A stretch of DNA of 53,446 bases from a virus. The position numbers and the translations under genes are program-made. The stretch is taken from the IMG/VR virus record IMGVR_UViG_3300013285_000579, positions 1 through 53,446 of that record. One strand, given 5' to 3'. Below are positions 2,001-53,299 of the stretch, one piece after another. The stretch's first letter is position 1; each line of letters opens with the position of its first letter. The notes beneath the pieces were generated by a model. It did not search any database, was not told the DNA's origin, and was given only the letters and a program-made list of their open reading frames with translations.

Positions 2001-3962
2001 ATGGCAATATCATATCTAGTTCTTGGTCAAATCATTCCACCTGCTACTGTAGCTACGAATCTGTACACCGTTCCACCGTACATTAGCACAGTTGTTAGTA
2101 CAATTGCAATATGCAATCAATCAACTTCGCCTACAACGTTTAGTCTGTCAATTAGACCAGCCGGTGCAACGGTTGAGACTAAACATTATTTGAATTATAA
2201 CACTGCAATTGCCGGCAATGATACAATTGCATTGACGCTGGGCATAACACTGGCTACTACTGATGTGGTTACCGCTACTTCATCATCGGGCAATGTTAGC
2301 TTTGTAGCATTTGGGGCAGAGACTGGTACACTACCGGTGATTGTTGCCCCCGTGATTAACACAATTACCTATACTGATAGTTCGTACAATGCAATAAGTG
2401 AGACTGCAATTGCACCCGCCGGTGGTTATATCAAATTAGCAGGATCGGGATTCACATCTGGTTCTATTGCATATGTAGATGGTGTTGCTGCAACAGCTAC
2501 TACATATATTAGTCGCGATGAAGTGCGAGTTCAATTACCCGCAAAAACTGTAGGCAATTATTCATTGATGTTGTTCACTAGTGCCGGTCTTGGTGCTATA
2601 TACGCCAATGGCATTGTATGCTCATCAGTACCAAGTTGGACAGCTAGCTCTTATAATAATCCTACTGCTGGTCAGATAGTAAACGTCCAGTTGTTAGCTA
2701 CGGGTGATGTGCCGTTGACTTATAGTTTGCAAAGTGGAAGTTCATTGCCAATTGGTGTTACCTTGAGTAGTACTGGATTGGTGTCGGGCACTGCTACTGG
2801 GATATCAAGTACGACCACAGTTACATTTACCGTGGTAGTAAGTGACGTGCAACTTCAAACGGCACCGCAATTAATCAGCTTAACATTGACATTCTATATA
2901 GGTAAACTTTGGGCTTGGGGCAATGACGGATTTGGTCAGCTAGGTGATAACGCAATATCGTACCGATCGTCACCAATTCAAGTGGGTTCATCAATTGATT
3001 GGAAAACAGTTTCGGTTGGATACTCACATACTACCGCAATAAAAACAGACGGAACACTATGGACTTGGGGAAAAAACGGCTTCGGCCAATTGGGTGATAG
3101 TACTACCGGTATCGCAAATTCTAAATCTAATCCTAACCAGATTGGGGTCTTAACTACGTGGCTATCAGTATCTGCGGCAGGGTATTGTACTGCTGCGGTG
3201 AGAACAGACGGTACACTTTGGACTTGGGGATATAATAATAACGGTCAATTGGGATTAGGTAACACTATTAATACGTCTAGTCCCGGCCAAGTTGGTAACC
3301 TGACTAATTGGTTGTCAGTTTCAAGTGGACAATACCATATAGTAGCTATCAAAACAGATAAGACAATATGGACTTGGGGCGCCGGCACTGATGGTAAGAT
3401 GGGGTTAGGTAATACCACCAGCTATTCCAGCCCCAAACAAATAGGATCATTAACTGATTGGTTACGAATATCTGCAGGTGTATACCATACTGCAGGTATT
3501 AAAATAGATGGCACACTATGGACGTGGGGTAAAAATGCAAGCGGCCGGCTAGGCCTAGGAGATACTCTTAGTAGATCCAGCCCGGTACAAGTTGGATTGT
3601 TGACCACTTGGCTATCACTAGCTGGCGGCTATCTATTCTCGACAGCAGTTAAAACGGACGGAACTCTTTGGACCTGGGGTAGCAACCCGTACGGCCAACT
3701 TGGCCTAGGTAATACTACAACTTATTCAAGTCCCAAGCAAGTTGGTGCATTAACAACGTGGAAATCAACTTCAACTGGTTGGTATGATTCACTCGCTACA
3801 AAAACAGGTGGCACACTTTGGTCATGGGGGTATAACTATATCGGACAGTTAGGTCTAGGTGACACTATTAATCGTTCTAGTCCGGTACAAGTTGGTACAT
3901 TAACTAACTGGACATCAGTTTCTGCTGGAAATACGCACACCGCAGCAATCTCATCCACCTAA
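2001..3962 (+). CDS. Modular tail adhesin with seven-repeat RCC1 propeller
   Basis: 653 residues. Modules in order: an N-terminal ~105-residue domain starting MAISYLVLGQ, also found in the next two genes; an IPT/TIG-like domain (~120-215, GGYIKLAGSGF...); a putative-Ig domain (~220-300, LPIGVTLSSTGLVSGTA); then seven RCC1-type repeats (~305-653) with the WxWGxNxxGQLGLG signature. Seven repeats is the number that closes an RCC1 beta-propeller. RCC1 domains bind protein or nucleic acid partners in cells; here a receptor-binding tip is the likely role, by inference. The ATG at 2001 follows a TAAATA box. A Shine-Dalgarno-like GGGAG lies too far upstream (about 12 nt) to be convincing. It lies between other virion genes. 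Confidence 0.8.
   Translation: MAISYLVLGQIIPPATVATNLYTVPPYISTVVSTIAICNQSTSPTTFSLSIRPAGATVETKHYLNYNTAIAGNDTIALTLGITLATTDVVTATSSSGNVSFVAFGAETGTLPVIVAPVINTITYTDSSYNAISETAIAPAGGYIKLAGSGFTSGSIAYVDGVAATATTYISRDEVRVQLPAKTVGNYSLMLFTSAGLGAIYANGIVCSSVPSWTASSYNNPTAGQIVNVQLLATGDVPLTYSLQSGSSLPIGVTLSSTGLVSGTATGISSTTTVTFTVVVSDVQLQTAPQLISLTLTFYIGKLWAWGNDGFGQLGDNAISYRSSPIQVGSSIDWKTVSVGYSHTTAIKTDGTLWTWGKNGFGQLGDSTTGIANSKSNPNQIGVLTTWLSVSAAGYCTAAVRTDGTLWTWGYNNNGQLGLGNTINTSSPGQVGNLTNWLSVSSGQYHIVAIKTDKTIWTWGAGTDGKMGLGNTTSYSSPKQIGSLTDWLRISAGVYHTAGIKIDGTLWTWGKNASGRLGLGDTLSRSSPVQVGLLTTWLSLAGGYLFSTAVKTDGTLWTWGSNPYGQLGLGNTTTYSSPKQVGALTTWKSTSTGWYDSLATKTGGTLWSWGYNYIGQLGLGDTINRSSPVQVGTLTNWTSVSAGNTHTAAISST
3561..3595 (+). 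repeat. 35-nt exact repeat, copy 1 (RCC1 region)
   Basis: The 35 bases from GATACTCTTAGTAGATCC to GTACAAGTTGG are identical to 5791-5825 in the next RCC1 gene. The bases before and after differ, as expected for a short gene-conversion or recombination tract. Confidence 0.8.
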
Positions 3963-3971
3963 TCCCAACAA

Positions 3972-4612: not shown

Positions 4613-4942
4613 ATGGCAACAACATATAAAATCTTAGGGCAAGTTAACACAGCAGTTGACTCATTGACTACATTGTATTCAGTACCTGTAGCAACCAGCA
4701 CCATTCTCAGTACTCTTGCAGTGTGCAATCAAAACAATACTGCTGCTAACTTTAAGATAGCAATCAGACCAGCTGGCGCAACTATTGACCTTAAACATTA
4801 CATCAACTACAACACCACTGTGCCAGCTAACGATACAGTGACACTGGCAATAGGTATAACATTGGCTGCAACAGATGTAATCACAGTCAGTGCCAGTTCT
4901 ACTACAGTTAGTTTTCTGGCGTTTGGTAGTGAGATTTCATAA
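4613..4942 (+). CDS. Single-domain virion protein, N-terminal adhesin module only
   Basis: 109 residues from the ATG at 4613 (MATTYKILGQVNTAVDSL). A longer in-frame extension upstream is rejected because this ATG aligns with the starts of the two preceding paralogues. The whole protein equals the ~105-residue N-terminal domain of those paralogues (VCNQNNTAANFKIAIRPAGA, then a LKHYINYNT motif). It ends in TAATG, overlapping the start of the next gene. That gene carries the remaining modules, so the pair looks like a two-gene version of the 2001-3962 adhesin with translational coupling. Confidence 0.65.
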   Translation: MATTYKILGQVNTAVDSLTTLYSVPVATSTILSTLAVCNQNNTAANFKIAIRPAGATIDLKHYINYNTTVPANDTVTLAIGITLAATDVITVSASSTTVSFLAFGSEIS

Positions 4943-6654
4943 TGTCTGTAAAGACCAGTAGCAAGCAATCGCTAGCAAGATTCAGCACTTTAGCCAGTGC
5001 ATCAATTATTACTCCGGCGGCCGCAGCGGCGGCCGCAGCCACTGTTCCGGTTATAAGTCAGGTTTATATCACCGATGGCAGCTATGCTACTATATCACAG
5101 ACTGCACTCAGCCCAACAGGTGGATATCTTAAAATTATCGGATCATCTTTTCAAGCTGGATCAGTTGTTTATGTAGGTGGACAAACTGCAACTGTATTAG
5201 CAACTACATTTGTAAGTAGCACTGAAATTCGTGTGCAAGTTTCAGCATTGACGGTTGGTAACTATTCAGTGATGGTTTTCAACACTAACAGTAGTGGCGC
5301 AATTTATGCCAATGGTATTGTGGTGTCATCGGTCCCGAGTTGGACTACTAGTAGTTATACTTTTGCTGGCAATGCGGTCAACACTCAATTGACTGCAACC
5401 GGCGATGTGCCGTTGACCTATAGCTTGCAAGGTGGAAGTTCGTTGCCCGTTGGTGTCACATTAAGTTCAACTGGATTGATATCGGGTACTGCTATCGGTA
5501 TTTCAACTAATACAGTCGTAACTTTTACAGTTGTTGTAAGTGACTTACAGCTACAACCAACTCCGCAGTTGATCAATTTAACTATGACCTTCTATGTTGG
5601 TAAGTTATATACTTGGGGGTATAACGGTGATGGGCGGCTGGGATTAAACAACACTATTAATACATCCAGCCCGGTACAAGTTGGTTCATTGACCGACTGG
5701 ACAGCAACGGTTAATCTGCTTGCCGCAATTAAAACAGACGGAACTCTCTGGACTCGCGGGCCAAATACGTACGGTCAACTTGGCCAAGGTGATACTCTTA
5801 GTAGATCCAGCCCGGTACAAGTTGGTACATTAACCTCGTGGTTACGAGTTGCCGGTGGCTACAATATGGGCGCAATTAAAACAGACAGAACACTGTGGGT
5901 ATGGGGCGCCAACTTTCAAGGTGCCTTAGGTCTAGGCGACACTATACATAGATCAAGTCCGGTGCAAGTTGGTGCATTAACTAATTGGGCAACTGTTCGA
6001 GTTGGGGTTTCTTGTATTTTAGCAACCAAAACGGACGGAACTCTTTGGACTTGGGGTCAGAATTACCGCGGCACCCTTGGGCTTGGCGACTCGTTACCGC
6101 GATCTAGTCCTGTTCAGGTGGGTACATTAACAAATTGGTTGTCTCTGGCCGCCGGCCATCAAGTAGCCGCAATTAAAACGGACGGAACTCTTTGGACTTG
6201 GGGCTTCAACTCATATGGTCAATTGGGATTAGGTGACATTATTGACCGATCTAGTCCAATACAAGTTGGCTTGTTAACTAATTGGAAATCGTTAGATAAT
6301 AGTGACGGCGGCCGGCTTGAATTTTTAGCAATCAAAACCGACAACACGCTGTGGGCTTGGGGATATAATACTTCTGTCCTTGCCGAGGGCAAACTAGGAT
6401 TAGGCGACACGGTTAGCAGGTCAAGTCCAACTCAAGTTGGTGCACTGACTAATTGGTCAACTGTTACTCACGGTTCGAAAGCAGTGGTTGCAATTAAAAC
6501 AAACGGTACACTTTGGTCCTGGGGAATCGGTCAATACGGCGAGCTTGGGCTAGGTAGTACAACTAACATCTCAAGTCCACAACAAGTTGGTTCATCAACC
6601 ACGTGGGTAGCTGTCAGTTCCAGTAACCTAGGTTGTAGTGCAATCTCCAGCTAA
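4942..6654 (+). CDS. Tail adhesin: IPT/TIG, putative-Ig and seven RCC1 repeats
   Basis: 570 residues. A short N-terminal stub with a polyalanine stretch (residues ~25-33) replaces the N-terminal virion domain. It is followed by an IPT/TIG-like domain (~38-135), a putative-Ig domain (~140-215, LPVGVTLSSTGLISGTA) and seven RCC1 repeats (~220-570). Most repeats have a W-x-WG motif; the second has WTRG and the sixth carries an insertion (NTSVLAEGKLGLG). The ATG overlaps the stop of the upstream gene (TAATG), suggesting coupled translation of separate anchor and propeller polypeptides. DNA segments are identical to parts of the 2001-3962 gene. Receptor binding is inferred. Confidence 0.75.
   Translation: MSVKTSSKQSLARFSTLASASIITPAAAAAAAATVPVISQVYITDGSYATISQTALSPTGGYLKIIGSSFQAGSVVYVGGQTATVLATTFVSSTEIRVQVSALTVGNYSVMVFNTNSSGAIYANGIVVSSVPSWTTSSYTFAGNAVNTQLTATGDVPLTYSLQGGSSLPVGVTLSSTGLISGTAIGISTNTVVTFTVVVSDLQLQPTPQLINLTMTFYVGKLYTWGYNGDGRLGLNNTINTSSPVQVGSLTDWTATVNLLAAIKTDGTLWTRGPNTYGQLGQGDTLSRSSPVQVGTLTSWLRVAGGYNMGAIKTDRTLWVWGANFQGALGLGDTIHRSSPVQVGALTNWATVRVGVSCILATKTDGTLWTWGQNYRGTLGLGDSLPRSSPVQVGTLTNWLSLAAGHQVAAIKTDGTLWTWGFNSYGQLGLGDIIDRSSPIQVGLLTNWKSLDNSDGGRLEFLAIKTDNTLWAWGYNTSVLAEGKLGLGDTVSRSSPTQVGALTNWSTVTHGSKAVVAIKTNGTLWSWGIGQYGELGLGSTTNISSPQQVGSSTTWVAVSSSNLGCSAISS
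5791..5825 (+). repeat. 35-nt exact repeat, copy 2 (RCC1 region)
   Basis: Identical to 3561-3595. A shorter exact repeat, AAAACGGACGGAACTCTTTG, also occurs three times, at 3651, 6028 and 6175. Confidence 0.8.
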
Positions 6655-17242: not shown

Positions 17243-18385
17243 ATGACCAACAAGACCTCTCTCACATTAACGCAAGCGTACAGCAAGCAATTAAGCGGCA
17301 CTTGGCCTACTACTTGGTATGTCCCGCCGCAGTATTTATGGGCCTGGGGTACTAATGCTTATGGTAGGCTGGGACTAGGTGATACTACTAATCGTTCAAG
17401 TCCGGTGCAAGTTGGCGCACTTGGCACCTGGTCAGTTATTTCAGCTGGGGTTCTAGTAACGGCCGCAATTAAAAAAGATGGCACATTGTGGTGCTGGGGT
17501 TCTAGTAACGGACAAGGTGCAGTAGGTGACGGTACAACCTCACCTAGATCCAGCCCAACTCAAGTAGGTGCATTGACCAGCTGGACGTTAGTTGCAGCAT
17601 GCGGTCAGAGCGTTAATGCGATTAAAAATAACGGAACCCTTTGGGCCTGGGGATGGAATGGTTATGGTATGCTAGGCGACGGGACAGTGATTAGTAAATC
17701 CAACCCCGTGCAAGTGGGTATATTGACTAACTGGCTGACGATAGCATCCGGTCGATATCAAGTTATTGCAACAAAAACAGATAATACACTTTGGATTTGG
17801 GGTAAGAACAACGTCGGACAGCTAGGCCTAGGTGACACTATATCCCGATCTAGTCCAGTACAAGTAGGTGCACTGACTACCTGGAAATCAGGTTTTGCTG
17901 GTGGCCAAAATTCAATGGTGATCAAAACAGATGGGACACTATGGGCTTGGGGTATTAACACCTGGGGTCAACTAGGGCTAGGTGATACCATCAGCCGGTC
18001 CAGCCCAGTGCAAGTGGGTCTACTAACTACATGGCAGACGGCCGACGGCAACGGAGAGACTGCTATAGTTGCATCCCGAACAGATGGTACTGTTTGGACT
18101 TGGGGCAGAAACCTCGGCGGTGGACTTGGTCTAGGTGACACTATTAGTCGTTCTAGTCCGGTACAAGTTGGCTCGTTGACTAACTGGCTGTTAGTTTCTA
18201 GTAGTGGGTATTCAGCAGTAGCAATCAAAACAGACGGTACCCTTTGGACCTGGGGTAGCAACTACTATGGCCAACTAGGTCAAGGTAATACTATTGACCG
18301 ATCTAGCCCGGCACAAGTTGGGGCTGCAGCCGCGTGGCAGTCGGTGTCAGGCGGATATAACTGGTGTGTCGCAATCTCCAACTAA
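17243..18385 (+). CDS. Anchor-motif RCC1 tail adhesin
   Basis: 380 residues. The N-terminus (LTLTQAYSKQLSGTWPTTW) carries the anchor motif of the two glycine-rich adhesins (10779, 15186). It joins directly to seven RCC1 repeats (~28-380), each with a W-x-WG core such as LWIWGKNNVGQLGLG. The second and third repeats lack the full LGLGD. The protein combines the anchor of one adhesin family with the propeller of the other (2001, 4942), direct evidence of module exchange. Receptor binding is inferred. Confidence 0.75.
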   Translation: MTNKTSLTLTQAYSKQLSGTWPTTWYVPPQYLWAWGTNAYGRLGLGDTTNRSSPVQVGALGTWSVISAGVLVTAAIKKDGTLWCWGSSNGQGAVGDGTTSPRSSPTQVGALTSWTLVAACGQSVNAIKNNGTLWAWGWNGYGMLGDGTVISKSNPVQVGILTNWLTIASGRYQVIATKTDNTLWIWGKNNVGQLGLGDTISRSSPVQVGALTTWKSGFAGGQNSMVIKTDGTLWAWGINTWGQLGLGDTISRSSPVQVGLLTTWQTADGNGETAIVASRTDGTVWTWGRNLGGGLGLGDTISRSSPVQVGSLTNWLLVSSSGYSAVAIKTDGTLWTWGSNYYGQLGQGNTIDRSSPAQVGAAAAWQSVSGGYNWCVAISN

Positions 18386-22104: not shown

Positions 22105-23760
22105 ATGAACATTAACGTAGTTAAACGTAACGGGGAAATTGTTCCCCTCGATATTTCGAAAATACAAAGGCAGGTAGCACACGGGTGCAGGGGTATTGAT
22201 AACGTCAGTCCTAGTATGATTGAAATCAAGGCTCAGATCGAGGTACGCGATGGAATGAGTACAAAAACCATCGATGAACTACTATTAAAAGCAATGGTTA
22301 ACCTGATCGATGAGAGTGAAAACAGCGACATTAACAATGTGAATTATCAGTATGTAGCAGGCAGGCAGAAGGTCAGTATGCTACGTAAAGAGGTATACGG
22401 TACATATGATCCTCCCTCACTGTATGATATCGTAGTCACTAATATCGCAGCGGGTATGTACACCACTGCCCTACTTGAGTGGTACACCAAAGAAGAATGG
22501 GATATCATTAACCTGTTTCTTGACCACAGCAAGGACGAAAATTACACTTACGCAGCTATCGCTCAATTAACCGAAAAGTACTTAGTGCAAAACCGTGCTA
22601 CTGGTCAAATCTTTGAGAGCCCACAGATTCGGTATGCAATCGCAGCCGCCACTGCCTTCCACGCAGAACCAAAAGACAAGAGATTGAAGTATGTCAAAGA
22701 GTATTACGAATGCGCAAGTGATGGTCAGTTTACTCTTGCTACCCCTGTTCTCGCTGGCCTTGGTACTACTACTAAGCAGTTTTCTAGTTGCGTACTTATC
22801 TCTAGCGATGATACACTTGACTCTATTTTCGCCTCGGGTGAAATGATGGCCAAGTATGCTAGCAAACGTGCTGGCATTGGGTTAGAGATTGGTCGCATTC
22901 GCCCTCTTGGCGCAGCAATTCGTAACGGTGAAATCAAACACACGGGTATGATTCCTTTTCTTAAGAAATGGTTCTCTGACTTGCGTAGTTGCAGTCAAGG
23001 TGGCATTCGCAATGCGTCATGCACCGTTACATTCCCGGTATGGCACTACCAGTTCGAAGACCTCATAGTACTAAAGAACAATCAAGGCACCGAAGAAACT
23101 CGCGTTCGTCAAATGGACTACAGTGTTGTAGTCAACAAGATGTTCTGGAATCGTTATCGCAACAATGAAAACATCACCCTGTTCGATCCGCATGAAGTGC
23201 CTGATCTGTATGAAGCATACTACCGAGACAGTGATGAGTTTACTAAGTTGTACGCATCGTATGAAGCTAGAAACGATATCAAGAAGAAAGTCCTGCCCGC
23301 AGTAGAAATCTTCAAGAACGGTATTCTAAAAGAACGCACCGACACCGGTCGCATCTATCTAGTGAATATCGACAATGTTATCAATCAAGGTCCGTTCGAT
23401 ACTAAAGTAGATCCAATCTATCAATCTAATTTATGTCTTACCGGTGATACTACGATTCAGATTATGGATACTAATAAAACTATTCACTCAATCTCTCTTG
23501 AGGATTTTGTCAATAAATTTGATGCTGGTTATATGTCAAATATAAAAGTTAGAAGTTCAAATATCTTAACTGGTGAAGTAACTTGGAATGCAGTGAGTAA
23601 CGCCGCTAAAACAGCAACAGTCACTGAATTAATTGAAATCGAAGATGAATCTGGTAAAATTATTAGATGTACATTGGATCATCAGATATATACTACAAAT
23701 CGTGGTTATGTTAGAGCCGGCGACTTAGTAGAAACTGACGAGTTATGTGTTGAAATTTGA
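22105..23760 (+). CDS. nrdA: NrdA N-terminal part fused to a split-intein N-half
   Basis: 551 residues. Residues 1-~90 are an ATP-cone (VVKRNGEIVPLDISKIQRQV). Residues ~150-443 are the class Ia large-subunit barrel, including ATPVLAGLGTTTKQFSSCVL (the active-site Cys equivalent to E. coli C225) and TGRIYLVNIDNVINQGPFD. At residue 444, after QSNL, the enzyme sequence changes to an intein: block A CLTGDTTIQI (444-453) and block B with T-x-x-H (T523, H526, in RCTLDHQIYTTNRGY). The frame stops after DLVETDELCVEI. The missing catalytic region is supplied by the product starting at 24725. Trans-splicing is needed for activity. Confidence 0.9.
   Translation: MNINVVKRNGEIVPLDISKIQRQVAHGCRGIDNVSPSMIEIKAQIEVRDGMSTKTIDELLLKAMVNLIDESENSDINNVNYQYVAGRQKVSMLRKEVYGTYDPPSLYDIVVTNIAAGMYTTALLEWYTKEEWDIINLFLDHSKDENYTYAAIAQLTEKYLVQNRATGQIFESPQIRYAIAAATAFHAEPKDKRLKYVKEYYECASDGQFTLATPVLAGLGTTTKQFSSCVLISSDDTLDSIFASGEMMAKYASKRAGIGLEIGRIRPLGAAIRNGEIKHTGMIPFLKKWFSDLRSCSQGGIRNASCTVTFPVWHYQFEDLIVLKNNQGTEETRVRQMDYSVVVNKMFWNRYRNNENITLFDPHEVPDLYEAYYRDSDEFTKLYASYEARNDIKKKVLPAVEIFKNGILKERTDTGRIYLVNIDNVINQGPFDTKVDPIYQSNLCLTGDTTIQIMDTNKTIHSISLEDFVNKFDAGYMSNIKVRSSNILTGEVTWNAVSNAAKTATVTELIEIEDESGKIIRCTLDHQIYTTNRGYVRAGDLVETDELCVEI
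23434..23757 (+). other. N-intein of a split NrdA intein
   Basis: 108 residues beginning with the nucleophilic Cys at 23434-23436. Blocks A and B are present and C-terminal blocks F and G are absent; they are in the gene at 24725. The DNA becomes visibly more AT-rich here than in the flanking nrdA coding sequence. Confidence 0.88.
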
Positions 23761-23768
23761 TTACCAAG

Positions 23769-23776
23769 AATAAATA
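23769..23776 (+). promoter_or_regulatory. T4-late-like box AATAAATA before the HNH gene
   Basis: It lies in the 32-nt gap between the N-intein stop and the HNH start, followed by TAAGGAAAT as a Shine-Dalgarno. It could give the endonuclease its own transcript. Confidence 0.4.
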
Positions 23777-23792
23777 CATATAAGGAAATTAT

Positions 23793-24728
23793 ATGTATAC
23801 AGAACTTTACGAGAAATTAATTGATAATGCAAGAAAAGAAAACAGAATGAGAGATCAGGGAACTTACTATGAACGACACCATATTGTTCCTGATTTTTTA
23901 TTTAAGAATAGAAAAAGAACAGGTCCTAAAGGAAATCTAGATGGTAATCCTGACAGCGTAGGAAACATCGTCTTACTGACTTTCTCTGAGCATTTAATGG
24001 CTCATTATTATTTGTATGAGATATATAAAGAAACTAGATATGAATACTCTGCTGGTTCTGCCCTACAATTCTTTTTTGTTAAGGCAACTAGTAATCACAA
24101 AAGACAGGTTAATTTATCTGAGATTGATGGGAAGTTTCTTAAGGACATGGACCATTTGAGGCTACTTGGTAACGAGTGTATTAGTAAAGCACGAAAAGGA
24201 AAGATGCCAGTAGTTAATGCTATTACTAGGGAAAAACAAGGATCGGTGCGCATAGACCACCCAAATGTATTGTCGGGTGAATGGATTCATCATAGCAAAG
24301 GTATCCCTGGAAAATCCGGTAGAGATATGACTGGTACTAAAAATGTCAACTTCAAAGAACTTACTCAGGATCGAAGAGAAAGAATGTGGAAATGTGTTTC
24401 AGTATCATGTCAAGAAGGATATCTAAAATTAAATTTATTACAAGAGTCTATGAAAAGAGAATTTATTGAATTTAAGAAAATTTCGTTAGCTTGGATTAGT
24501 AATAAATTTGGTTCTTTGAAAAACTTAATTGAAGAAACTAATAAAAATATGAATCTTACCATTAAGTACGATCCATATCATAGAAGTATATCGCACCGAA
24601 AGATTGCAGAGGAAAATTCAGCAAAACATCGATGGTATAATAACGGAATAACTAACGTCAGAGTAACAGATGAAAAAGAATTTTGTAAAGAAAATCCAGA
24701 ATTTGTCCAAGGAAGAATAAAAATATGA
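23793..24728 (+). CDS. Free-standing HNH homing endonuclease between split-intein halves
   Basis: 311 residues with its own Shine-Dalgarno (TAAGGAAAT). The HNH core is YYERHHIVPDFLFKNR (~27-42) followed by GNIVLLTFSEHLMAHYYLYE (~66-85), the H-H-I-V-P...N-I-V-L-L-T...H...A-H pattern of phage homing endonucleases. The central KMPVVNAITREKQGSVRIDH and VLSGEWIHHSKG and the late HRWYNNGITNVRVTDE (~270-285) look like the modular DNA-binding segments of such enzymes. The gene is AT-rich. Its stop overlaps the ATG of the C-half (ATGA). It probably cuts intein-less nrdA alleles and spreads the element by homing. Confidence 0.85.
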   Translation: MYTELYEKLIDNARKENRMRDQGTYYERHHIVPDFLFKNRKRTGPKGNLDGNPDSVGNIVLLTFSEHLMAHYYLYEIYKETRYEYSAGSALQFFFVKATSNHKRQVNLSEIDGKFLKDMDHLRLLGNECISKARKGKMPVVNAITREKQGSVRIDHPNVLSGEWIHHSKGIPGKSGRDMTGTKNVNFKELTQDRRERMWKCVSVSCQEGYLKLNLLQESMKREFIEFKKISLAWISNKFGSLKNLIEETNKNMNLTIKYDPYHRSISHRKIAEENSAKHRWYNNGITNVRVTDEKEFCKENPEFVQGRIKI

Positions 24729-24826
24729 TAAAAATTAAAAAAATTAAAGTAGAGCCTACTGACGTATATGATATCACTGTACCAGAAACCGAGTGTTTTT
24801 TTGCCAACGATATTTTAGTTCATAAC
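24725..24826 (+). other. C-intein of the split NrdA intein
   Basis: 34 residues ending HN immediately before the TGC codon at 24827-24829. With 23434-23757 it makes a complete, endonuclease-free splicing domain. Confidence 0.88.
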
Positions 24827-25828
24827 TGCCAAGAGATTCTATTACCTACTAAGCCTTTCCAACGTATTGAAGATGAGTCCGGCCGCATTGCCCTCTGCAC
24901 ACTTGGCTCAATCAATTGGGGTTCATTCAAGTCACCACAAGAAATACGTAAGTGCTGTAGAGTTCTTGTTCGTAGCCTGAGTAATCTATTAAGCTACCAA
25001 GACTTTCTATCTATTCAAAGCAAGTTGGCTAACGATGACTTTGAACCACTGGGTGTTGGTATTACTAACCTAGCTTACTGGCATGCACGTAAAGGATTTA
25101 AGTACGGTGAACCAGAAGCACTTGCAGAAGTTAAGCGTTGGATGGAACATCAGGCATACTATCTAACTGAAACTTCGGTTGAGTTAGCACAAGAGCGCGG
25201 TGCTTGCAAGCGTAGCGAATTCACTTACTACGGTAAGGGTGTGTTTCCTTGGGAACGTAGGAACAAGGGAGTAGACGAACTAACCAGTTTCGCTCCAAGT
25301 ATTAATCTAGACTGGGAAGGCTTGCGCCAAAAGCTATTGCAATATGGCATCAGAAATGCTACACTAATGGCTGTTGCACCTGTTGAAAGTTCTAGTGTTG
25401 TGTTGAACAGCACGAATGGTATTGAAATGCCAATGGAACTTATCAGTGTCAAAGAAAGCAAAGCGGGTAGCTTTGTTCAAGTTGTTCCCGAGTACAAGCG
25501 TTTGAAGAATCGTTATCAAATGATGTGGGAGCAGAAGGACTGTGTAGAGTACTTGAAAACTAGTGCGGTGTTAGCTGCATATGTGGATCAGTCATTGTCT
25601 ACCAACACATTCTACAATCCTGCATTCTTTGATCAAGGCAAAGTACCCGGTACACTGATTGCCAAGAACTTGATGCTTGCATACAAGTGGGGCTTGAAGT
25701 CAATGTATTATAGCCTAATTAACAAAGTGGGCAGTAAAGCTGCATTACAAGAGGAAAGCAACATCATTGCTTTCGTTAAGCAAGAACCAATTGAAGAAGA
25801 AGAATACTGTGAAAGCTGCGTCCTATGA
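24725..25828 (+). CDS. nrdA: Split-intein C-half fused to the NrdA C-terminal part
   Basis: 367 residues. Residues 1-34 are the C-intein: block F YDITVPETECFFAN and block G ILVHN, ending in the splice-site Asn34. Cys35 is both the +1 extein residue and the equivalent of E. coli NrdA C439, the thiyl-radical cysteine, in CQEILLPTKP; Glu37 matches E441. RIALCTLGSINWG holds the C462 equivalent. MYYSLI holds the radical-transfer tyrosine pair (Y730/Y731 equivalents), and the tail CESCVL carries the redox-shuttle cysteines. An AAGGA-like site lies about 13 nt upstream of the ATG. The stop overlaps the nrdB ATG. Confidence 0.9.
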   Translation: MIKIKKIKVEPTDVYDITVPETECFFANDILVHNCQEILLPTKPFQRIEDESGRIALCTLGSINWGSFKSPQEIRKCCRVLVRSLSNLLSYQDFLSIQSKLANDDFEPLGVGITNLAYWHARKGFKYGEPEALAEVKRWMEHQAYYLTETSVELAQERGACKRSEFTYYGKGVFPWERRNKGVDELTSFAPSINLDWEGLRQKLLQYGIRNATLMAVAPVESSSVVLNSTNGIEMPMELISVKESKAGSFVQVVPEYKRLKNRYQMMWEQKDCVEYLKTSAVLAAYVDQSLSTNTFYNPAFFDQGKVPGTLIAKNLMLAYKWGLKSMYYSLINKVGSKAALQEESNIIAFVKQEPIEEEEYCESCVL

Positions 25829-26925
25829 GTAAAGAACAATACGATTTATCAAAACAAACAAACTACCTCAAGCGCACTATGTTCTTGGACCCGGCAGGTC
25901 CAGTTACTGTTCAACGCTTCGAGGAAGTAAAGTACCCACGCATTGCTAAGTACGAAGAAACTGCCCGTGGATTCTTCTGGGTTCCGGAAGAGATTTCACT
26001 GACTAAAGACAAGATGGATCACAAGGATTCATCCGATGCTATCAAGCATATCTTCACTAGCAATCTACTACGCCAGACTGCACTTGATTCAATTCAAGGC
26101 CGTGCTCCTAGTCAGATTTTCAGCCCTGTTATCAGTATTCCTGAACTTGAAGCACTAGTAGGCAACTGGAGCTTCTTTGAGACTAACATTCATAGTAAGT
26201 CATACTCACACATCATTCGTAATGTATACGGAGTACCCAAAGAAGAATTCAACAAGATCCATGATACTAAAGAGATTATTGACATGGCCGCTAGTATCGG
26301 TAGATACTATGAAGCACTACACCAACTCAACTGTCGCAAAGAATGCGGAATGCCCGTCACTGAACGTGAGCATATCAAAGCTATCTGGATGGCACTACAT
26401 GCATCTTATGCGCTAGAAGCATTCAGATTCATGGTATCGTTTGCAACAAGTCTCGCTATGGTAGAGAATCGGATTTACATCGGTAACGGAAACATTATCT
26501 CCTTGATCCTGCAGGACGAGTTGCTTCATACAGAGTGGACAGCATGGTTAATCAACAACGTAACCAAAGATGACCCTCGCTTTGCATCTGTAGTAGACGA
26601 ATGCAAAGTAGAAGTTTATGCATTATACCTAGAAGTTATTGAAGAAGAAAAGAACTGGGCAACCTATCTATTCTCTAAGGGTGTAGTGATCGGGTTGAAT
26701 GCTGAGATATTAAAAGACTTTGTAGACTTCACGGCTTTCAATCGGTTGAAAGATATTGGCATCAAGTATGCTGAAGGTCATCCTAAGCACAGCCCTATCC
26801 CATGGTTTAATAAACATGTAAATCTCAACAAGAAGCAAGCAGCATTACAGGAAACAGAAAGCACATCATACGTCATCGGAGTGATGAGTGATGTAGTAGA
26901 CTACGACCAACTACCGGTACTATAA
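25825..26925 (+). CDS. nrdB: Ribonucleotide reductase small subunit
   Basis: 366 residues, class Ia-type radical subunit. Metal-ligand positions: Asp88 (TALDSIQGR), Glu119 and His123 (FFETNIHSKSY), Glu in LEAFRF (~205), and Glu/His in DELLHTE. The tyrosyl-radical residue is Tyr127, followed by SHIIRNVYG. The first Glu and His are separated by three residues instead of the usual two (E. coli ETIHSRSY), an apparent one-residue insertion. The gene overlaps the nrdA C-part by ATGA and is followed by a glutaredoxin. Forms the active enzyme with spliced NrdA to make deoxyribonucleotides for phage DNA. Confidence 0.92.
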   Translation: MSKEQYDLSKQTNYLKRTMFLDPAGPVTVQRFEEVKYPRIAKYEETARGFFWVPEEISLTKDKMDHKDSSDAIKHIFTSNLLRQTALDSIQGRAPSQIFSPVISIPELEALVGNWSFFETNIHSKSYSHIIRNVYGVPKEEFNKIHDTKEIIDMAASIGRYYEALHQLNCRKECGMPVTEREHIKAIWMALHASYALEAFRFMVSFATSLAMVENRIYIGNGNIISLILQDELLHTEWTAWLINNVTKDDPRFASVVDECKVEVYALYLEVIEEEKNWATYLFSKGVVIGLNAEILKDFVDFTAFNRLKDIGIKYAEGHPKHSPIPWFNKHVNLNKKQAALQETESTSYVIGVMSDVVDYDQLPVL

Positions 26926-34519: not shown

Positions 34520-35785
34520 ATGATGAACGAATCCAAAACCTTTTGTATGCACCCTTTCACGGGCCTAGCTACACGCGAAGACGGCGCAATTAAATTATGT
34601 TGCCGCAGTAACCCTATAGGAGATATCACTAAAGAGTCATTAGAAGATATATGGAACAATGTTAGCATGAAACGTGTGCGTAAGCAAGTATTGAATGGAG
34701 AAAGACCCCCAGAGTGCGAACCCTGCTTTAGTGTAGAAGATCAAGGTGTGGAATCGTTGAGACAGAGACATAACAGTACTATCTTTCCTGATAGTCGCAC
34801 TGTACTATTCCCAGAGTATATAGATAGAATGACTGATGATTATTCAATGCCGTTTGACATCCCTACGATGGAATTAAAGATGAATAACTTGTGCAATCTT
34901 AAATGCCGTATGTGCAACCCTGTAGATAGCACTAGCTGGAACGATTGGAAAGAGATAGAACCGTTCTTTGTCAAAGAGAATAACTTCATGGTTAAAATCA
35001 TTGCAGATAATAACTTAATGAACAAACCCTACCTAGATAAGTTCGAAGACAATGCATACTGGTGGGATTCGTTTGAGAAGCTATTACCCTCATTGCGTAA
35101 GTTAGACTTTGCCGGTGGGGAACCGTTGATGGATCCACAGCATTATAAGATACTAGAGATGCTTGAGCCTTATGCCAGTAACATTAGCCTTAAATATGCT
35201 ACTAATATGAGTACATTGGGCAAAGGTAAACGTTCTGTAATGAATTACTGGCCTAAGTTTAAGGACGTTGCAGTCAATGTATCCATCGATGGTATTAAAG
35301 AGTCCTATGAATATATCCGCGGAAACAGTGATTGGAATATAATGATAGCTAATATTAAGACAGTGCAGGGTATGGGCAATATTAAAAGAATGATCGGGGC
35401 AACCTGCGTACAGGCAACTAATGCGCTTATACTAGATAAGATCATTGAATACACGTTAGATGAACTAGGTATTATATTCTGGTGTAACTTCCTACGTTAT
35501 CCTAATGTACTAAGCATTCAGGTATTGCCCCCTGAATTAAAGCTGCTAGCAGTAGATAGATTACTCATAGCTAAGAATAAGATTCACACCTATAGATTAA
35601 TCAAGCAGCAACCGGAACTATTACCCCTGATCAGTAACGAAATTGATAACATTATTAACTATATACAGGGTGAGGAACATCATGATAAATGGATGGATTA
35701 TCTTGAGTTTAATCGACGGTTAGATAAAACCCGTAATCAGGGCCCGGTACAAATGATTATACCTGAGTTCAAGCCCTATGTATAA
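34520..35785 (+). CDS. Radical SAM protein with N-terminal twitch-like Cys cluster
   Basis: 421 residues; the ATG at 34523 is the alternative start. An N-terminal Cys set (CMHPFTGLA, KLCCRSNP, PPECEPCF, ~residues 5-70) resembles a SPASM/twitch auxiliary iron-sulfur site placed before the core. The radical SAM motif is LCNLKCRMC (C-x3-C-x2-C, ~131-138), followed by LRKLDFAGGEPLMDP (GGEP, SAM binding, ~193-207) and VNVSIDGIKESYEYIRG. Such twitch radical SAM enzymes are common in aquatic phages and act on peptides or sugars; the substrate is unknown. It overlaps the next gene by 8 nt. Confidence 0.8.
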   Translation: MMNESKTFCMHPFTGLATREDGAIKLCCRSNPIGDITKESLEDIWNNVSMKRVRKQVLNGERPPECEPCFSVEDQGVESLRQRHNSTIFPDSRTVLFPEYIDRMTDDYSMPFDIPTMELKMNNLCNLKCRMCNPVDSTSWNDWKEIEPFFVKENNFMVKIIADNNLMNKPYLDKFEDNAYWWDSFEKLLPSLRKLDFAGGEPLMDPQHYKILEMLEPYASNISLKYATNMSTLGKGKRSVMNYWPKFKDVAVNVSIDGIKESYEYIRGNSDWNIMIANIKTVQGMGNIKRMIGATCVQATNALILDKIIEYTLDELGIIFWCNFLRYPNVLSIQVLPPELKLLAVDRLLIAKNKIHTYRLIKQQPELLPLISNEIDNIINYIQGEEHHDKWMDYLEFNRRLDKTRNQGPVQMIIPEFKPYV

Positions 35786-47280: not shown

Positions 47281-47748
47281 ATGCCGTGGATTGAAAACGT
47301 AGCAAAAGTTGATATTACAACCGGCTTCCATCACGATGCTGGCGAAAACAGTATGCTGATCGGTATCAATGATCCTGCAGGCTGGCCACCAACTGCCAAG
47401 CATCAATTCAAAGAGCGTCACAACTTTGAGTTCCTTGATATCGAACTAAACGACTTTGCGCTTGATGAAGAAATGCGATGCAGCCAAGAGCAAGCTAATG
47501 AGTTGGTCCGACTTCTGCAACATGCATTAGAGAACAGGATGAACGTAGTTGTTCATTGTCACATGGGTGTATGTCGTAGCGGTGCAGTCACTGAACTTGG
47601 TGTTATGATGGGCTTTGACGATGTAGGTCGTTGGCGCAGTCCTAACTTGCTAGTTAAGCATCGTATGATGTCTGCATTGGGCTGGGCATATGATGAGAAT
47701 GAAAAGCCAAATATTGACGATTGGCGCACTATGACGAATGATATCTGA
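47281..47748 (+). CDS. Dual-specificity/tyrosine phosphatase-like protein
   Basis: 155 residues with a strong ribosome site (AAGGAG). The active-site signature H-C-x5-R is VVVHCHMGVCRSGAVTELG (~93-111), with Cys as nucleophile and Arg binding phosphate; a preceding LDIELNDFALDEE segment could supply the general-acid Asp. N-terminal part: ITTGFHHDAGENSMLIGIND. The length fits small cysteine phosphatases. The substrate may be a protein or phosphorylated sugar/nucleotide of the host. Next gene starts 1 nt after the stop. Confidence 0.75.
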   Translation: MPWIENVAKVDITTGFHHDAGENSMLIGINDPAGWPPTAKHQFKERHNFEFLDIELNDFALDEEMRCSQEQANELVRLLQHALENRMNVVVHCHMGVCRSGAVTELGVMMGFDDVGRWRSPNLLVKHRMMSALGWAYDENEKPNIDDWRTMTNDI

Positions 47749-47749
47749 T

Positions 47750-48946
47750 ATGGGTAAAAATATTTTAATAGTCGGCGGCGGCAGTGCTGGATGGATGACA
47801 GCAAGCTATCTAGCAGTACAAACGGATGCTAACATCACCTTAGTAGAAAGTCCTAATATTCCTATAATAGGAGTAGGGGAAAGTACAATACCTAGTATCA
47901 ATGACTTCATGGATGCAGTAGGCATTTCAGAACAAGACTTGGTAGAGAATTGCAACGCCATTAGAAAATATACGATACAGCATAACAATTGGAATGGAAC
48001 CAATGATACTTGGTGGCATCATTTTTGTTTCGATGAGAGTGAACATGATGAGCAGATTGAATGGATGCGTACACTGTCACTCCCTGATAAAAAATGGAGG
48101 CATGCTTATCACTTAGACGCCACTAAGCTAGGATTGTTACTGCGCGATAAGTCAGCTATTCCGGGTGGAGTAACGCATATTCTAGATGATATTCAAGAAG
48201 TGCAATTTGACGATGCAGGAGTAACCGCAGTTGTTGGTAAGAATGGAATATATACGGCAGATTTATATATAGACTGTACTGGATTCAAGGGCTTACTGAG
48301 AAAAACTCTAGGTGTAAACACTCATCAGCATCCGGGACTAGTTAATAACTATGCACTAGCAGGGCCCGGTGACTTCATGGAGCCGCAAGTTAATTACACT
48401 CAAACTTACGCAATGGATTGCGGCTGGCGATGGAGAGTATGTATCCAAAATCGTACAGGAAATGGATATGCGTTCAACAAAGATTTAATTAGTGTGGACC
48501 AAGCTCGTACTGAGTTCATTGCTAAGACACCGGGATTACGAATAGATAAAATATTCGAAGTCCCGATGTTCAATAGTTTTAATCCAGAACCCTGGAAACA
48601 AAACGTAGTAGCATTGGGATTGAGTTGTGGGTTCTTGGAACCGCTTGAAGCAACTGGCTTATTTTTGATTCACGCACCGCTAAAGTTATTAGCGAGATTA
48701 TTGAACGATGACAAAGCTACAGCAAAGTACAATCGGGTATGGACTCGTATGTATAATCACATTGCAGATTTCTTGAGTATGCATTTTACTACTAGTAAAT
48801 TAACCCATACTGAGTATTGGAGAAGCATTCCTAAAATTGATAAAGTAACTCTACCGGAGTATGGTCAAATACTATTCGATCAATACAGCTATAGAAATCT
48901 AGCTAAAGGTCGTAATATGGAAATAAAGGTTGACAACAATCCTTAA
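47750..48946 (+). CDS. Flavin-dependent tryptophan-halogenase-like protein
   Basis: 398 residues from the ATG at 47750; ATG 47738 overlaps the phosphatase gene. NILIVGGGSAGWMTASYLA (~4-22) is the FAD-binding GxGxxG with the halogenase-type WM. PIIGVGESTIPSINDF (~40-55) is the family's second signature. AIRKYTIQHNNW (~66-77) contains a Lys where the catalytic lysine is expected. The G-W-x-W-x-I-P motif appears as GWRWRVCIQ, lacking the Pro. LEPLEATGLFLIH is also typical. It is shorter than characterised halogenases (~500 residues). Halogenation or another flavin oxidation is possible. Confidence 0.7.
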   Translation: MGKNILIVGGGSAGWMTASYLAVQTDANITLVESPNIPIIGVGESTIPSINDFMDAVGISEQDLVENCNAIRKYTIQHNNWNGTNDTWWHHFCFDESEHDEQIEWMRTLSLPDKKWRHAYHLDATKLGLLLRDKSAIPGGVTHILDDIQEVQFDDAGVTAVVGKNGIYTADLYIDCTGFKGLLRKTLGVNTHQHPGLVNNYALAGPGDFMEPQVNYTQTYAMDCGWRWRVCIQNRTGNGYAFNKDLISVDQARTEFIAKTPGLRIDKIFEVPMFNSFNPEPWKQNVVALGLSCGFLEPLEATGLFLIHAPLKLLARLLNDDKATAKYNRVWTRMYNHIADFLSMHFTTSKLTHTEYWRSIPKIDKVTLPEYGQILFDQYSYRNLAKGRNMEIKVDNNP

Positions 48947-52738: not shown

Positions 52739-53299
52739 ATGGCTGTTCTAGCACTAGACATTTCGGGAATTCCAAGACAATGGATCTCATACGATGACGC
52801 AATCACTTACCAAGCTAAAGATGCGGTAGCATGGAGCATGGGCGAAGTGGTTGCAAGATATCGCGGCGGATACCAGAACGACGGATCAATTAGTTACCTA
52901 GAAACTTCTAGCATCATTGCTATTAAAGGCCATGGCTTCAATCCATACAAGCATTCAACTGTTGCACTGACTAACAAGACATTGTTTGGTCGCGACAGAA
53001 ACGTTTGTGCGTATTGTGGCGAACATCACGTTAACTATCATCACTTGTCACGTGACCACATCAAGCCAAAGTTCTTGGGTGGTGAAAATACTTGGATGAA
53101 CGTTGTCACAGCATGTAAGACTTGCAATAGTGATAAGGGTCACAAGACCTTGAAGGAATGCGGTAAGAAACTTTTGTACGCACCGTACATCCCTTCTCAT
53201 CACGAAAACATGATCCTACAACATCGTAACATTCTTGCTGATCAAATGGATTACTTGCTAGCAGGTGTGCCAAAGCACTCGCGTATATTGCTTTCATAG
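52739..53299 (+). CDS. HNH endonuclease (zinc-ribbon type)
   Basis: 186 residues with ribosome site CAGGAG. NVCAYCGEHH (~81-90), LSRDHIKPKFLGGENTWMN (~96-114) and VVTACKTCNSDKGHKTLKE (~115-133) form the classic HNH fold: two C-x2-C zinc pairs around the D-H catalytic pair and the N/H helix. The N-terminal ~75 residues (MAVLALDISGIPRQWISYDD) are a domain often found in front of such phage HNH proteins. It differs from the homing enzyme at 23793. It may be a free-standing nuclease gene nested between tRNAs. Confidence 0.8.
   Translation: MAVLALDISGIPRQWISYDDAITYQAKDAVAWSMGEVVARYRGGYQNDGSISYLETSSIIAIKGHGFNPYKHSTVALTNKTLFGRDRNVCAYCGEHHVNYHHLSRDHIKPKFLGGENTWMNVVTACKTCNSDKGHKTLKECGKKLLYAPYIPSHHENMILQHRNILADQMDYLLAGVPKHSRILLS

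Follow-up and report, generated by a model that had tools for sequence, protein, structure and literature searches.

Genes broken in two by split inteins, with free-standing endonucleases nested between the halves, were reportedly described from ocean metagenomes by Dassa et al. in 2009. Three later articles relay this description of fractured genes (PMC3653736, PMC7090010, PMC6892783), and the first counts seven nrdA and two nrdJ cases among them (PMC3653736). In the isolated Pseudomonas phage MIJ3, the gene of DNA polymerase B is interrupted by a split intein whose halves flank an HNH gene (PMC6892783), and in Aeromonas phage Aeh1 an HNH gene whose expression is controlled by a hairpin and a late promoter splits nrdA (nrdA-a/mobE/nrdA-b), there without an intein and with parts that assemble unspliced (PMC2988022). 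Here we analysed a viral stretch of 53,446 nucleotides (IMG/VR record IMGVR_UViG_3300013285_000579; hereafter the window), in which NrdA, the large subunit of class Ia ribonucleotide reductase (RNR), is encoded in two separate open reading frames (ORFs), 22105-23760 and 24725-25828, with an HNH ORF at 23793-24728 between them. The two halves of NrdA carry the two ends of an intein and are, in our reading, joined by protein trans-splicing.

Like the genes of the 2009 description, the nrdA of the window serves nucleotide metabolism and is interrupted by a split intein, the two halves of which flank a free-standing endonuclease gene; it differs in belonging to another phage, in its PHROG 655-type HNH, in an HNH cassette swapped between intein lineages and in having relatives that show loss and re-fusion. 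The nrdA of Yersinia phage vB_YenM_TG1 (NC_028820, L082; L numbers are our labels), annotated as two NrdA-like genes and a homing endonuclease, shares with the window the insertion point, the three-gene order, an HNH protein (31% identity) and a hairpin with TATAAATA before the HNH gene, whereas identity is limited to 31-41% in the HNH, N-intein and exteins and to 56% in the C-intein. Split inteins with a nested endonuclease are already known; what is new relative to the relayed 2009 description is the comparative series, and we present 103 loci at one site, a control element, a mosaic HNH cassette, repeated loss of the homing endonuclease gene (HEG) and a re-fused intein (L279). The features of the window locus are the following:

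22105-23433, plus strand: nrdA N-extein, 443 residues, ending in ..DPIYQSNL (Pfam and NCBIfam RNR matches)
23434-23757, plus strand: N-intein, 108 residues, with C1 and block B CTLDH (TIGR01445; sequence match to solved inteins)
23728-24763, plus strand: outer limits of the transferred mosaic cassette, comprising the N-intein end, leader, HNH and C-intein start (mosaic fits)
23770-23777, plus strand: T4-late-promoter-like motif ATAAATAC (motif scan)
23774-23798, plus strand: hairpin ATACATATAA-GGAAA-TTATATGTAT, with part of the ribosome site in its loop and the HNH start codon in its 3′ arm (folding, covariation)
23793-24728, plus strand: free-standing HNH homing endonuclease, 311 residues (HH29-30, N58, H67; PHROG 655)
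24710-24715, plus strand: AGGAAG, ribosome site of the C-half within the HNH 3′ end (sequence)
24725-24826, plus strand: C-intein, 34 residues, MIKIKK..FFANDILVHN, ending in HN (TIGR01443)
24827-25828, plus strand: nrdA C-extein, 333 residues plus stop, opening CQEILLPTKP with the catalytic Cys (Pfam RNR; alignment to E. coli R1)
25825-26925, plus strand: nrdB, small subunit, given for context (Pfam)

An earlier note, made from the letters of this DNA, had described these three ORFs as NrdA halves carrying a split intein, with an HNH gene nested between them and NrdA resuming at CQEILLPTKP, and our analysis recovered the same ORFs. The N-half ends in a match to TIGR01445 (intein_Nterm, 6.8e-08) and the C-half begins with one to TIGR01443 (intein_Cterm, 1.4e-07), both in NCBIfam, and RNR domains were matched on both halves (Pfam, NCBIfam). 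The N-intein (CLTGDT..CTLDH..LCVEI) is closed by a TGA stop at 23758-23760; the HNH ORF has its own ribosome site, AGGAA, and its stop overlaps the C-half start in ATGA. In all, the insert in nrdA (N-intein, HNH and C-intein) measures 1,393 bp, with a G+C content of about 26-38% against 38-47% in nrdA. The note's placing of the locus among the known fractured genes, in an uncharacterised phage, was likewise borne out; the leader control element, the mosaic origin of the HNH gene and the insertion at the catalytic cysteine were absent from it.

The first residue of the C-extein aligned with position 439 of E. coli R1, and the insert lies exactly 5′ of this catalytic cysteine codon. Cys439 of E. 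coli NrdA is the radical cysteine. Empty sites were compared in the 80 nearest nrdA relatives (77-89% identity over the C-half), 78 of which span both sides of the junction; in all 78, the gap at the junction was exactly zero, without an insertion. With RNR matches on both halves and an empty site in relatives, the window holds a conserved enzyme gene broken in two.

Related HNH genes were found in 16 other viral contigs, every one inside the same split nrdA, and the isolate genome of TG1 has the same three-gene layout, so that the arrangement is neither chance nor an assembly artefact. Once duplicates had been removed, broader searches with profiles of the N-intein and of the HNH yielded 103 distinct nrdA loci split at this position; in 79 the break falls directly before the catalytic Cys (SNL/C) and in 24 one codon later (SNLC/C). 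Relative to the N-half, the C-half is in frame 0 in 26 loci, in frame 1 in 32 and in frame 2 in 45, so that the halves cannot be connected by one shared readthrough or frameshift. An HNH gene separates the halves in 39 loci, a GIY-YIG gene in 32 and another ORF in 4, whereas 28 have no intact endonuclease; these classes were assigned by pattern, with examples checked against Pfam and PHROGs. Contiguous inteins at the same nrdA site were seen in LIMEstone1 (L083), L279, L286, L289 and L177. A scan of genome contigs gave few relevant loci; a Prevotella and a Cloacimonadota metagenome-assembled genome (MAG) show the split nrdA arrangement, both loci probably being phage. Within L086-L101, both insertion points occur, in separate intein lineages with one HNH type in common.

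The splicing residues are retained across the 103 loci: TxxH is present in all 103 and C1 in 102 (the remaining locus starts at the edge of its contig), the C-intein terminates in HN or SN, and the +1 residue is Cys in 102 and Ser in one. The ratio of nonsynonymous to synonymous rates (dN/dS) was about 0.04-0.15 in most close N-intein pairs and about 0.1 overall for the intein halves, indicating purifying selection, and it was also low in N-inteins where one partner had lost the endonuclease (L296/L298, L293/L285). We read these values as probable selection for splicing, not as proof of it. In a comparison of the N-half with the PDB, NrdJ-1 was the best match (E 4e-13 by sequence, 7e-22 by profile), and a predicted model of a contiguous homologue (L111, on the same contig as L279; predicted local distance difference test score, pLDDT, 88) had the NrdJ-1 split intein fusion (8ubs) as its best fold match (E 2.4e-11). 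NrdJ-1 is thus the nearest solved intein by sequence and by fold, yet close sequence identity to the window's intein is lacking. The host gene of NrdJ-1 encodes a class II RNR. Two loci (L217, L209) may resemble the split intein NrdA-2, a likeness that serves as a lead only. Because the splicing residues are conserved, purifying selection acts on both halves and NrdJ-1 is the closest solved intein, we infer active trans-splicing of the NrdA halves, a conclusion that is well supported.

The leader that separates the stop codon of the N-half from the HNH start contains ATAAATA and a perfect hairpin of 10 bp, in which the endonuclease start is hidden. In related leaders (n = 15, 12 distinct), 97.5% of pair cells were standard, slid controls failed, both sides had changed in 5 of the 10 pairs, and the covariation score was reached by none of 500 shuffles. 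In the 75 endonuclease-bearing loci, we compared the first 75 nt 3′ of the N-half stop with two control stretches, one preceding the C-half and the other within the N-intein. Leaders had a median structure z-score of -3.25, with 56 of 75 below -2, against control medians near 0, and 44 of 75 contained ATAAATA where 8.8 were expected, figures that should not be read as probabilities because the leaders are not all independent. In distant loci the stem sequences are unrelated and the layout is the same. The layout resembles the control of I-TevI and Aeh1 mobE, in which a hairpin forms in early transcripts and a late promoter is sited so that late transcripts are without the 5′ arm (PMC2988022); by this analogy, the HNH gene would be expressed late. 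In keeping with it, three large relatives carry phrog_234, the late sigma factor family of T4 gp55. Copies of ATAAATAC also stand in the window at 3971, 6677, 15147 and 16037, 11-39 nt 5′ of other, partly structural, genes, which suggests that they may serve as T4-like late promoters in this phage. A scan for sigma-70 promoters and terminators gave nothing above shuffles.

The HNH ORF matched the PHROG 655 homing endonuclease family (9.5e-13), its HH29-30, N58 and H67 were invariant in 11 of 11 aligned HNH sequences, and its dN/dS was 0.05-0.08. Its ancestry differs from that of the surrounding intein. The N-intein of the window resembles L293, whereas the stretch from ~23730 to ~24740 resembles another lineage (L138, L296, L114), and 3′ of ~24740 the signal is back to L293-like or even. 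Accordingly, the window HNH is 77-83% identical to L138, L296 and L114 versus 52% to L293. Mosaic fits placed the cassette at 23728-24741, 23736-24710 or 23736-24763, with log-likelihood gains of 54-94; L293-like and L138-like sites numbered 71 and 249 in the cassette versus 73 and 24 in the N-intein. The cassette is mosaic, and the HNH gene of the window derives from another intein lineage; this pattern indicates that the endonuclease and its leader moved between split inteins, also across insertion points one codon apart. Weak HNH relatives (30-34%) lie just 3′ of nrdA in L021 (2092-2274), L037 (5873-6115) and L088 (8084-8260), comparable to mobE in T-even phages.

In the 28 loci without an intact endonuclease, the split is retained. 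HNH 3′ pieces remain in L122, L135, L149 and L127, and the last HNH codons with the ribosome site in L300 and L131, while L298, L285 and L290 have no HNH remnant. In a tree of the inteins (142 columns, with a bootstrap that had not fully converged), the well-supported branches require the 'no HEG' label to change 19 times or more, and sister pairs with and without the gene were found in L296/L298 (100/98) and L092/L290 (100/88). Between L296 and L298, synonymous divergence (dS) was 0.05-0.19 in the intein halves versus 1.68 in the C-extein, as expected if the intein moved recently; the N-extein was left out, the upstream part of L296 not being comparable. On many occasions, then, the endonuclease has decayed or been lost by deletion, and the split has persisted. 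Contiguous mini-inteins are nested in split clades, namely L279 beside L283 (100/98), L286/L289 (clade 99/96) and L177 (100/83). The L279 linker, TTACACAAGGCAGATCACT-ATG, matches the 3′ end of the L283 HNH and keeps the start codon of the C-half, direct evidence of origin by deletion from a fractured gene, so that at least this mini-intein can be regarded as a re-fused split intein. Nesting suggests the same for L286/L289 and L177, where a contiguous ancestor is an alternative. We consider it likely that the split inteins of the nrdA site undergo a reversible cycle, in which endonucleases many times enter, replace one another, degenerate and are lost by deletion without the gene ceasing to be split, and in which a deletion can also re-weld the halves into an ordinary contiguous mini-intein. 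If so, a contiguous intein need not be ancestral, and endonuclease-free split inteins would be products of endonuclease loss.

Taken together, it is highly probable that the NrdA halves are joined by trans-splicing, that the HNH protein homes the element and that the hairpin and late motif time its expression. NrdA would be made as two polypeptides whose intein halves associate and splice in the standard way through N-intein Cys1, C-intein Asn34 and the +1 cysteine, which would then act as the radical cysteine of NrdA. As to the DNA target, we infer that the HNH protein should cut nrdA alleles without the element, of which the mosaic cassette may be an indirect sign; in mixed infections, the element would thereby be copied into them. 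The hairpin would mask the HNH start codon on the long nrdA transcript, so that the NrdA halves are made early and the endonuclease is not, and late transcripts from ATAAATA would be without the 5′ arm, freeing that start.

Some observations weigh against this proposal. In the window itself the hairpin has a modest stability (-8.4 kcal/mol, z -2.37), the late-promoter motif is only weakly enriched across the whole window (8 vs 4.2), the full TATAAATA shows no enrichment there, and phrog_234 was found in only 3 of 20 records, many of which are fragments. Moreover, the HNH protein has no Pfam match and its predicted structure, a model we did not use, matched nothing in the PDB (Foldseek), so that it is identified by its motif, its PHROG and its context.

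Of the other explanations, the one we rate highest, though still improbable, is that the NrdA parts assemble non-covalently and the intein ends are vestigial, as in the mobE-split nrdA of Aeh1, which functions without a splicing element (PMC3653736, PMC2988022). The additional break without recognisable intein halves in L247 and L271 would fit this explanation; but essentially all 103 loci retain every splicing residue in both halves, dN/dS of the intein halves stays low even after endonuclease loss, and the break lies directly 5′ of the catalytic cysteine codon. That an ordinary contiguous intein was broken by an assembly error or a recent frameshift is very unlikely. The record is a metagenome contig and contiguous inteins do exist at this site, yet the layout recurs in 16 loci with a related HNH, in 103 distinct loci in all and in one isolate genome, and the HNH gene is equipped with a start and a ribosome site of its own and with a conserved leader; for the family as a whole, this explanation is refuted. 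Least credible of all is a group I or II intron with an encoded HNH and an accidental intein likeness. Introns of phages often harbour HNH genes and commonly interrupt phage RNR genes (PMC3653736), but intein-end models match on both sides and conserved protein is encoded up to both junctions; no Rfam intron matched in the window up to E 1 and none in seven other loci, so a catalytic RNA core was not found there.

Trans-splicing thus remains our reading, and the locus would allow it to be tested cleanly, on an enzyme whose splicing nucleophile would double as the RNR radical cysteine. The family forms a natural series from a fractured gene with an endonuclease through a remnant and a bare split intein to a re-fused mini-intein, which bears on the origin of split inteins and split genes and on whether splitting is reversible. 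Its more than 100 natural split intein pairs are candidate tools for protein engineering.

More elaborate breaks were seen in several relatives. NrdA is spread over four ORFs in L247 (5001-7082) and L271 (3989-6314). Besides an HEG-less split intein at SNL/C, these loci have another split intein, which precedes SSVVSNATNG / TSAQIANATNG, and a break after IDD/LND whose tails are unrelated. In Klebsiella phage KP13-7 (L084, 2029-7559), NrdA again spans four ORFs and two split inteins, the first of which encloses a GIY-YIG gene and the second an HNH-like ORF; the gene is broken once more at SCSQG, beside a small HNH-like ORF, and no Rfam intron reached the gathering threshold. The contiguous mini-intein of L289 (754-3463) is followed 15 residues on by another break, whose N-side tail resembles intein block B and N4 without block A and whose C-side head is ~13 residues long. 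In Streptococcus phage GXN1 (L085, 2753-5714), a probable terminase gene is fragmented: one ORF has a C-intein at its start and an N-intein plus an extra domain at its end, and the next opens with another C-intein. In a Methanobrevibacter MAG contig (L306), intein-like ends flank a 238-residue ORF, possibly a fractured gene of an archaeal genome or provirus. Finally, the window also encodes three RCC1-repeat proteins (2001-3962, 4942-6654, 17243-18385), a tryptophan-halogenase-like protein (47738-48946), a radical SAM/SPASM protein (34520-35785) and a second, unrelated HNH gene (52739-53299).
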